This document shows, one piece after another, positions 51,266-52,071 of a stretch of DNA of 64,000 bases. A program made the position numbers and the translations under genes. The stretch comes from an uncultured Bacteroidales bacterium (GTDB lineage Bacteria > Bacteroidota > Bacteroidia > Bacteroidales > UBA932), in assembly GCA_900321715.1 (NCBI GenBank), contig ONXC01000006.1:62001-126000 (forward strand), read 5' to 3'. The notes beneath the pieces are model-generated. The model was not told where the DNA came from. It made no database searches and saw only the letters and a program-made list of their open reading frames with translations. How positions within the stretch are numbered: the stretch's first letter is position 1; the number at the start of each line of letters is the position of its first letter.

Positions 51266-51448
51266 GTCGCAGGTCAAAGAGCGAAGCGTCGCAGGTTAAG
51301 TGAGAAAACGTCGCAGGTCTGCAAATATCGCCGGACCTGCGACGCTTTTTGCCTTCCTGGGCCGATTTCCGTCGCAGGTGGAGCCAAAAACACAGACCTG
51401 CGACACTTTCCTTCTCCACCTGCGACACTTTCCCCCCTGACCCGCGAC
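51266..51448. repeat. Cluster of eight GTCGCAGGT repeats in both orientations
   Basis: The 9-mer GTCGCAGGT occurs at 51266, 51288, 51310 and 51371 on the plus strand, and as ACCTGCGAC at 51335, 51396, 51418 and, with one mismatch, 51440. The first three are spaced by exactly 22 bp. The copies at 51310 and 51335 form a 10-bp hairpin (with flanking C/G). The three inverted copies at 51335-51426 are each followed by an ACTTT or GCTTT tail. The cluster fills the space between the SDR gene and the tRNA-Leu promoter. Function unknown. Confidence 0.8.
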
Positions 51449-51490: not shown

Positions 51491-51789
51491 GCCTTGGTGG
51501 TGGAATGGTAGACACGAGGGACTTAGAGAAAATTGAGTGCACTCTCTGAAAAGAGAGATGTAGAATGCCGTAAATTCAAGGAAACCATAACGGGTAACGC
51601 CGATGGCAATCTTGAGCCAAGCCTTTGAGAGAAGGAAGGTGCAGAGACTAGACACGGCACACCTAAAGAGCATAGCTCCAAGGTGAAGGAATAGTCCAGA
51701 CCACAAACAGAAATGGTGGCGAAAGCCATAGTGGTAAGAAAATCCCTTGGCCCGAAACGGCCGTGCGGGTTCGATTCCCGCCCGAGGCA
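51491..51789 (+). tRNA. tRNA-Leu(UAA), split by a group I intron
   Basis: The two exons are 51491-51524 (34 nt) and 51739-51789 (51 nt), 85 nt in total. The acceptor arms GCCTTGG and CCGAGGC pair over 7 bp with one G-U. The D arm resembles other Leu tRNAs (GTGG..GGTAGAC). The anticodon stem is AGGGA/TCCCT with loop CTT/AAAA, giving anticodon UAA. A long class II variable arm (GGCC..GGCC) and the T arm GCGGG TTCGATT CCCGC follow. The discriminator is A73; after CC the next base is T, so the full CCA tail is not encoded. The intron separates U34 from A35. Confidence 0.95.
51525..51738 (+). ncRNA. Group I intron (subgroup IC3-like) in tRNA-Leu(UAA), 214 nt
   Basis: The 5' exon ends in U and the intron ends in G, as required. 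P1: exon ACUU pairs with GAGU near 51535-51538, including the U-G at the splice site. P2 is CTCTC..GAGAG. P3 is TGCCGT (51566-51571) with ACGGCA (51654-51659). P4 is CAAG/CTTG with J4/5 GAAA. P6 is GCCAAGCC. P7 contains GACTA/TAGTC, which binds guanosine. P8 is CACCT/AGGTG. P9 has TGGC GAAA GCCA. The core strings GGTGCAGAGACTAGAC and AATAGTCCAG match the Anabaena tRNA-Leu and Azoarcus tRNA-Ile introns as I remember them. There is no endonuclease reading frame. Confidence 0.93.
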
Positions 51790-51793
51790 CCTT

Positions 51794-51830
51794 AATAGCC
51801 CCTAGACGATGCTCTAAGGGCTATTTTTAT
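51794..51830 (+). terminator. Terminator after tRNA-Leu
   Basis: AATAGCCC (51794-51801) pairs with GGGCTATT (51818-51825) and is followed by TTTATT, a Rho-independent terminator 5 nt after the tRNA. Confidence 0.85.
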
Positions 51831-51832
51831 TG

Positions 51833-51854
51833 ATTTGGTAAACATTTGGTAAAC
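51833..51854 (+). repeat. Tandem 11-bp repeat after tRNA-Leu
   Basis: ATTTGGTAAAC occurs twice in direct tandem right after the tRNA terminator. Such repeats next to tRNA 3' ends can be recombinase arm sites or remnants of an integrated element, but no integrase is in the window. Confidence 0.5.
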
Positions 51855-52005
51855 ATCGCATCCATAATCATTATTCGCAATCCCCACCAGGAGGTCTTAC
51901 TTCGATGATTTGTTTTCCATTTCTATATACCAAACCAGAGTCTAATCTTTACCGCCTGTTCTTCCTATAAGTTCAAAGCATAAAAACGGAACACTTGATC
52001 CATTT

Positions 52006-52071
52006 GTCCGTTGGATACATCGCTCCAAAGAACCACTGGTCCGTTGGGTACATAGTTCCAAAGAACCGCTG
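52006..52071 (+). repeat. Two tandem 33-bp repeats
   Basis: Two 33-bp units (52006-52038 and 52039-52071) differ at only a few positions; each contains GTCCGTTGG and TCCAAAGAACC. The unit is a multiple of three and is open in two frames; one frame reads SVGYIAPKNHW then SVGYIVPKNRW. No start codon precedes either frame, so this looks like a remnant rather than a gene. Confidence 0.65.

Follow-up and report, generated by a model that had tools for sequence, protein, structure and literature searches.

The tRNA-Leu(UAA) gene of this uncultured Bacteroidales bacterium is split in its anticodon by a group I intron, and the question raised by the locus is how such an intron came to reside there: the preliminary description of the window (the whole stretch of 64,000 nucleotides analysed here) left the choice between an ancient intron and lateral transfer. 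In particular, a 214-nt intron at 51525-51738 (+) interrupts the gene at 51491-51789 between U34 and A35. An Rfam covariance search yielded a match to the group I intron family RF00028 at 51515-51720 (+), with 56 bits against a gathering score of 50 and an E-value of 1.6e-11, which is the only above-threshold Rfam match within the window. When run without introns, ARAGORN found no tRNA anywhere in the window; with introns allowed, it called tRNA-Leu(taa), i(35,214), that is, a 214-nt intron after nucleotide 34. The exons joined after taking out 51525-51738 fold as tRNA-Leu(taa) with the anticodon loop CUUAAAA (ARAGORN), and the predicted spliced junction is GGGACUU followed by AAAAUCCC. Because plain ARAGORN misses a gene split in this way, UUA decoding can look absent in such genomes. 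Thus, the group I assignment, the insertion site, the coordinates and the restorable tRNA of the preliminary description are all borne out. The features of the locus are as follows.

51491..51524 (+), tRNA-Leu(UAA) 5' exon, ending at U34 (ARAGORN with introns; spliced fold)
51525..51738 (+), group I intron, 214 nt, with the final G at 51738 (RF00028, 56 bits; ARAGORN i(35,214))
51739..51789 (+), tRNA-Leu(UAA) 3' exon, from A35 to the discriminator A, CCA not encoded (ARAGORN; spliced fold)
51521..51538 (+), P1, exon ACUU 51521-51524 with GAGU 51535-51538, U.G at the splice site (MFE fold)
51542..51557 (+), P2 hairpin (MFE fold)
51566..51659 (+), P3, 51566-51571 with 51654-51659 (100% of cells paired; both-side changes in 2 of 6 pairs)
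within 51576..51615 (+), P4, 51576-51581 with 51610-51615 (core pair count; MFE fold)
within 51576..51615 (+), P5, 51585-51593 with 51600-51606 (both-side changes in 3 of 7 pairs; 89.7% of cells paired)
51616..51640 (+), P6 (both-side changes in 4 of 4 distal pairs)
51644..51697 (+), P7, the G-binding helix, 51644-51650 with 51692-51697 (paired, invariant in 32 sequences)
51660..51685 (+), P8 (81.9% of cells paired in the outer helix)
51700..51735 (+), P9 (MFE fold)

The free fold of 301 nt has an energy of -102.8 kcal/mol (z -4.26; none of 100 shuffles was equally good), and the MFE fold contains P1, P2, P3, P4, P5, P6, P8 and P9; P7 is a pseudoknot and so lies outside the reach of such a fold. 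The U.G pair at the 5' splice site, within the P1 of the MFE fold, and the terminal G both agree with a group I intron; the terminal G is present in all 21 introns of the genus with a visible 3' end, and TTGAGTGC, which is evidence for P1, in all 22 genus introns. Across 32 core sequences taken from the genus and the family, 95.3% of the cells of 39 named pairs are paired, in keeping with a P3-P8 core that includes P7. Changes on both sides affect 13 pairs and 66 cells, compared with 6.3 and 19.7 in shuffles, none of 500 of which reaches either value, and this covariation is seen in P3, P5, P6 and P8. The number of further pair types in the same 32 core sequences (20) is not above that in shuffles (19.3), and because P7 never varies and P4 hardly does, covariation is silent on these two helices. 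The core presumably resembles the IC3 introns of Anabaena and Azoarcus, and the architecture appears fit for self-splicing, as had been supposed from the start. Our core model (R1) matches the window intron by construction, having been built from this and related introns. The P1 loop of the window copy consists of 10 nt and harbors no HNH frame, in agreement with the earlier statement that the intron has no endonuclease; in relatives, the same loop houses an HNH ORF.

The genome to which the window belongs (2.04 Mb, 80.6% complete) contains a single RF00028 match and, with up to three mismatches allowed, no uninterrupted UAA anticodon arm in the assembly at that completeness. In eight nearby ORFs taken as real genes, TTA accounts for 12 of the 306 leucine codons, so tRNA-Leu(UAA) should be needed. 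G047 is the only one of the 10 high-quality intron-bearing genomes of the genus in which an uninterrupted UAA copy turned up, and tRNA-Leu(CAA), which is also able to read UUG, is present in some relatives. The dependence of decoding on splicing that had been proposed for both UUA and UUG is therefore plausible for UUA, given that no uninterrupted UAA gene is seen in this 80.6% complete genome, but need not extend to UUG, which tRNA-Leu(CAA) can read as well.

The surroundings of the gene have peculiarities of their own. A short distance upstream of the tRNA, GTCGCAGGT occurs seven times within 160 bases of the window (51266-51426), four times in direct and three times in reversed orientation, and the copies form nested inverted repeats; no other copies occur in the window, with 0.39 expected. 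On the minus strand at 51790-51886, a short frame reads MDAMFTKCLPNQ and then a stop, with a doubled TTTGGTAAACAT; we take this frame to resemble the start of Bacteroidota tyrosine integrases, so the 3' end of the tRNA may once have been an integration site. Farther downstream of the tRNA, two adjacent 33-nt direct repeats (82% alike) occupy the intergenic positions 51997-52062.

The distribution of the intron was surveyed mostly in MAGs, and the genome of the window is counted in every figure for the genus, family, order and phylum. Within the genus, 22 of 61 genomes have an RF00028 match at E 0.001, 12 of them above the gathering score, and 26 have an uninterrupted UAA gene (the empty-site pattern matched 29, three of which have only a CAA-type tRNA); 14 genomes show neither state, and one, G047, shows both, which may reflect mixed strains. 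At the family level, intron matches are found in 14 of 199 genomes and 4 of 25 genera. Two matches in genus g6 (L064 and L065; 27.7 and 24.1 bits), with neither the core motif nor a tRNA call, were assigned to other introns. The core model matches at least 3 of 393 genomes of the order and at least 27 of 395 genomes of the phylum, the latter in several different tRNAs, both counts being lower bounds with about eight candidates scored per genome; introns in tRNAs other than tRNA-Leu within the phylum were regarded as other introns and left out. Elsewhere in the phylum (L070-L072, L080, L083 and L088), tRNA-Arg(UCU) genes contain introns of 200-246 nt and adjoin tRNA-Pro and, with the exception of L088, tRNA-Cys. 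A 26-base core pattern recurs in at least 119 stretches of named genomes; among the 80 matches listed, the title refers to Bacteroidales, Bacteroidia or Porphyromonadaceae in 79 cases and just to 'Bacterium' in one, and many titles mention ruminants or the horse. In addition, an E. coli plasmid (L291, CP042600) has an unannotated 67% match to the intron-bearing tRNA query at 1501-1717, between IS26 and an ATPase gene, which may be another group I intron. That the window intron is a product of mis-assembly or contamination might be suspected because many of the relatives are MAGs and one genome shows both states. This is highly improbable: the intron sits within a 134,698-nt contig among ordinary chromosomal neighbours, and together with the recurrence of the core pattern in named genomes, this placement refutes the suspicion in substance.

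Within the genus, occupancy is scattered. All 40 genomes with a match but one, represented by a short fragment, entered an rpoB tree, and 32 of the 39 were scored; the 14 with an intron and the 18 empty ones require 10 changes, compared with 10.7 with shuffled labels, and well supported branches force at least 8 of these 10. The neighbour of the window genome in this tree, G054, is empty, and the close relatives beside this pair comprise two with the intron, G038 and G005, the latter with HNH, and one that is empty, G037. Moreover, across 15 genomes the distance between introns shows no relation to that between the rpoB genes (Mantel r 0.09, p 0.23); for instance, the cores of G031 and G035 are 5.6% apart at an rpoB distance of 27%. 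This is not what would be expected if Bacteroidales had inherited an ancient tRNA-Leu(UAA) intron vertically and repeatedly lost it, with the HNH gene invading some copies later. Such a history would accord with the identity of the tRNA, which is the one interrupted by the known intron of cyanobacteria and plastids (PMC4476775), and with the several kinds of tRNA intron among the matches elsewhere in the phylum. Against it speak the few matches scored across the order, the lack of clustering on the rpoB tree, the failure of intron distance to track host distance, and the core of the Bacteroidales intron L011, which is 92.5% identical over 107 nt to that of a viral contig, L250. The L250 core is also 82.7% identical to the window core (107-110 nt); the best other member of the phylum, L078, reaches 84.7%, but over 98 nt and with a score of 62 versus 125. 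We consider vertical retention of an ancient intron improbable and do not adopt it as the main reading; on the combined evidence of trees and distances, the window intron is not an old static intron. The other option of the preliminary description, lateral transfer, is in line with the same scattered occupancy and the same independence from host distance.

What the preliminary description missed is that the P1 loop of some introns of the same genus holds an HNH ORF, the frame of which continues into the ribozyme, and that the same kind of element is present on viral contigs; its interpretation as a whole thus holds in part. The 22 genus introns include 11 that are HEG-less, 6 with an HNH frame of at least 185 codons, 3 with a partial frame and 2 that are longer without an HNH frame. 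The corresponding numbers for the 80 named loci listed are 42, 18, 5 and 6, with 9 cut by the sequence end, and the 11 family loci comprise 8 HEG-less introns, 2 with the long HNH frame and 1 cut by the sequence end; the three sets overlap, with some contigs shared. Both HNH proteins tested match PF01844 or PF13392 above the Pfam cut-off, so the family, as distinct from the window copy, includes introns with a candidate homing endonuclease. HEG-less introns measure 210-249 nt (median 218; 61 loci), and the 25 long-frame introns with both ends present measure 722-752 nt (median 725). As read by eye, the P1 loops of L104 and L169 retain short fragments from the 3' end of the ORF and so document its decay; the 10-nt loop of the window copy contains no recognisable remnant, and we infer the loss of an ORF there from its relatives. 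Most pairs of the 23 distinct HNH genes compared, which do not include two further ORFs, are saturated for dS; the median dN/dS is 0.080 for the 25 unsaturated pairs out of 253 and 0.086 for the six pairs with dS <1, and by this measure, the HNH genes are under purifying selection.

Introns in tRNA-Leu(UAA) genes were also found in viruses. A 735-kb phage record (LR756501) has a HEG-less one of 205 nt, a 595-kb phage record (LR756511) one of 700 nt with a relative of the HNH nuclease, and those of the viral contigs L249, L250, L252 and L253 measure 713-993 nt and contain members of the same HNH family; the L250 sequence recurs on two further viral contigs, and L254 harbors the same intron and HNH element in a tRNA that was not called by ARAGORN. 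In the region 2368-3154 of L248 (LR756511), the HNH ORF of the phage intron, apparently located in P6 and not in P1, is preceded by a second, partial core match (2452-2508, 16.9 bits). A wider core pattern is present in at least 120 stretches of viral contigs. Among the 80 matches listed (L376-L455), 30 fall within a core-spanning tRNA call, 14 of them Leu(taa), compared with none among 80 when the flanks are shuffled, and the HFTGQGW-type motif of the HNH family is absent from all of these 80 viral pieces, so viral tRNA introns are common and most need not carry the HNH nuclease. These introns depart from the picture given in a passage of a 2014 review, in which all phage introns observed by then are in protein-coding genes (PMC3984707). 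In a tree of 57 protein rows (23 from Bacteroidales, 33 from viruses, and L074; 6 of 38 viral rows were dropped for stops), obtained by a quick method with few starred branches, the 23 Bacteroidales HNH proteins are on one side of a branch with an SH-aLRT value of 100, beside viral ones, and intron-borne and free-standing viral proteins are intermixed (8 and 7 changes).

The viral nucleases are linked to one tRNA in particular. The HNH family was found at 65 distinct viral loci, from 80 kept of 140. Inside an interrupted tRNA call lie 18 of these loci, 12 of them Leu and the rest Ser, Phe or Stop, labels that ARAGORN gave to some long-intron tRNAs and that in several cases are perhaps shifted Leu(UAA); six loci have no tRNA nearby, and 41, including L296 (the L254 element), lie outside a tRNA call with a tRNA on the same stretch. 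The tRNA closest to the free-standing HNH gene is Leu in 32 of these 41 cases and another in 9; from the Leu share of the tRNAs on each viral stretch, 15.2 would be expected, and none of 100,000 draws reached the observed number. Within 150 nt of the free-standing viral HNH genes, Leu accounts for 31 of 41 tRNAs, compared with 85 of 421 overall. The enzymes of this family most likely cut tRNA-Leu genes at or near the anticodon arm.

The chromosomal sites bear on whether the nuclease is needed at all. In G058 (occupied) and G008 (empty), the upstream flanks are 78.8% alike over 1353 nt, and the window (occupied) and G037 (empty) have 584 nt in common at 72%; each of these pairs therefore looks like one chromosomal location in two states, occupied and empty. 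The remaining five of the seven occupied/empty pairs have in common the exons plus at most short further stretches, and window/G054 and G037/G005 the exons alone. With exons nearly identical across the genus and long matching flanks in just two of seven pairs, transfer of the whole tRNA gene is conceivable too. If entire tRNA loci were exchanged by recombination or phage transduction, the intron would spread as a passenger, with no need for the HNH nuclease; recombination of entire tRNA loci is named in the title of Rudi et al. 2002 (cited in PMC3984707), and this course of events would suit both the five pairs with little in common beyond the exons and the 61 of 113 classified loci (in overlapping sets) that are HEG-less. 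We nevertheless deem it unlikely, in view of the two pairs with matching chromosomal surroundings (L020/L031 and L001/L050), the purifying selection on the HNH genes and the position of the viral HNH genes in or beside tRNA-Leu genes. The reading we prefer, with a probability of roughly 80%, is that the window intron descends from a homing intron with an endonuclease family specialised on tRNA-Leu and has decayed to the final stage, in which splicing alone is left.

In the active form of such an element, the P1 loop would encode an HNH nuclease of a family that recognises tRNA-Leu genes; the enzyme would cut the uninterrupted gene, and repair of the break would copy the intron in. The intron would jump in this manner between phage and bacterial copies of tRNA-Leu, and phages with tRNA arrays that bear the same intron and nuclease are the likely shuttle. 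Once the intron is fixed, the ORF would decay, with the length falling from about 725 to about 218 nt, and the ribozyme would continue to be selected for, since the spliced tRNA is required for reading UUA. What the sequences themselves show is the intron with its site and the restorable tRNA, the HNH ORFs and their remnants in relatives, the empty sites, the scattered occupancy, the viral relatives and the linkage to tRNA-Leu; splicing, cutting, homing, the direction of transfer and an earlier ORF in the window copy are inferred from these.

A further peculiarity of the viral elements is the course of the nuclease frame. In five distinct viral loci (L292, L294, L296, L300 and L301, the first four being the L250, L252, L254 and L249 elements, respectively), a single ORF of 278-283 codons from the match start crosses the whole ribozyme core and ends in the P8 loop, where its C-terminal segment contains paired cysteines and a motif resembling an HTH. 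In the four loci measured, the ORF frame contains the final stop alone over 379-394 nt, and the other two frames over the same length contain 21-24 and 5-12 stops. In L257, a free-standing viral relative, an ordinary linker connects the same N- and C-terminal parts, and the C-terminal motif recurs in 12 of 40 free-standing viral ORFs. In the AlphaFold model of the L250 protein (mean pLDDT 73.6, pTM 0.36), residues 151-197 have pLDDT <50, the ribozyme core encoding approximately residues 154-199; the flanking blocks are mostly at 80-93, with a second low stretch at 58-67. A comparison of the viral nuclease model with solved structures gave no fold match at E <0.001, and the Pfam matches of the C-terminal part to HTH_50 and zf-CGNR are below the cut-off; the label 'zinc-ribbon and helix-turn-helix' comes from the cysteine pattern, our own motif search and the model, and the segment probably binds DNA. 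Conceivably, and we put the chances slightly short of even, the core is coding sequence in the viral form, so that one polypeptide would run from the P1 loop through P2-P7 to the zinc-ribbon and helix-turn-helix in the P8 loop, the core being read as a disordered linker that joins the two DNA-binding parts of a tRNA-Leu-specific nuclease. Translation and folding of the core would then be mutually exclusive, amounting to a choice between nuclease and tRNA, and the Bacteroidales intron would be a descendant that lost the C-terminal part and then the gene. Overlaps of an endonuclease ORF with the intron are listed up to 81 nt in a source that warns that predicted overlaps may be wrong (PMC3073962), and the same caution applies to the viral ORFs described here. 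For Bacteroidales, dual coding was considered and rejected: the frame through the core is open to a stop in the P7 3' strand regardless of class, namely in 10 of the 24 introns with a HEG, in 25 of the 57 without one and in 11 of the 20 remaining ones (partial or longer), with class limits slightly different from those of the ORF-class counts. Because this frame is open about as often without a HEG, selection on the tail is not visible, and dual coding is kept for the viral form alone.

The tRNA-Leu(UAA) introns of cyanobacteria and plastids, which we take to have the same insertion site and a size and core similar to those of the window intron, contain, to our knowledge, no endonuclease ORFs; the present family differs in its HNH ORF in the P1 loop, its scatter within one genus and its viral relatives. 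Another organism with an interrupted tRNA-Leu gene is 'BOGUAY', presumably a Beggiatoa. In 'BOGUAY' and Thiomargarita, interrupted tRNA-Leu-TAA and tRNA-Arg-TCT genes with putative group I introns are described (PMC4853749), the former being, like ours, tRNA-Leu(UAA) introns outside cyanobacteria; unlike ours, they belong to another phylum and are given, in the accessible part of that paper, with no endonuclease or mobility. The group I intron of the Synechocystis tRNA-fMet gene has a PD-(D/E)XK endonuclease in P1, with a 61-nt overlap with the intron (P1/P2) (PMC3073962; Bonocora and Shub 2001), and is thus similarly a mobile tRNA intron with an overlapping ORF in P1, although in another tRNA and with a nuclease of another family. 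The frame described here reaches farther, to P6 or P7 in Bacteroidales and across the whole core in the five viral loci. PHROG 10822, a group of phage HNH endonucleases, matches the viral nuclease nearly over its full length (E 9.7e-54), covering both the N- and the C-terminal parts, and the Bacteroidales one with E 1.1e-46; it is annotated just as 'HNH endonuclease', and the link to tRNA-Leu and introns comes from the present analysis. SegB, a nuclease of the GIY-YIG family and hence different from the one described here, is not intron-borne. Known as a homing endonuclease of the tRNA region of T-even phage (PMC13096335), it resembles the present family in being free-standing beside phage tRNA genes. 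In the literature, judged by title and the start of the abstract and with subscription journals mostly outside the scope, we found no report of a tRNA-Leu(UAA) intron in Bacteroidota and none of the present HNH family at tRNA-Leu genes.

A type of tRNA intron that is usually thought of as old and quiet thus appears here in what seems to be a live homing cycle of gut bacteria, with the full, decaying, lost and empty states all within one genus. The cycle is tied here to a phage nuclease family located in or beside tRNA-Leu genes, so the choice of target can be tested directly. Translation of the viral ORFs would mean that a ribozyme core serves along its full length as protein-coding sequence as well.
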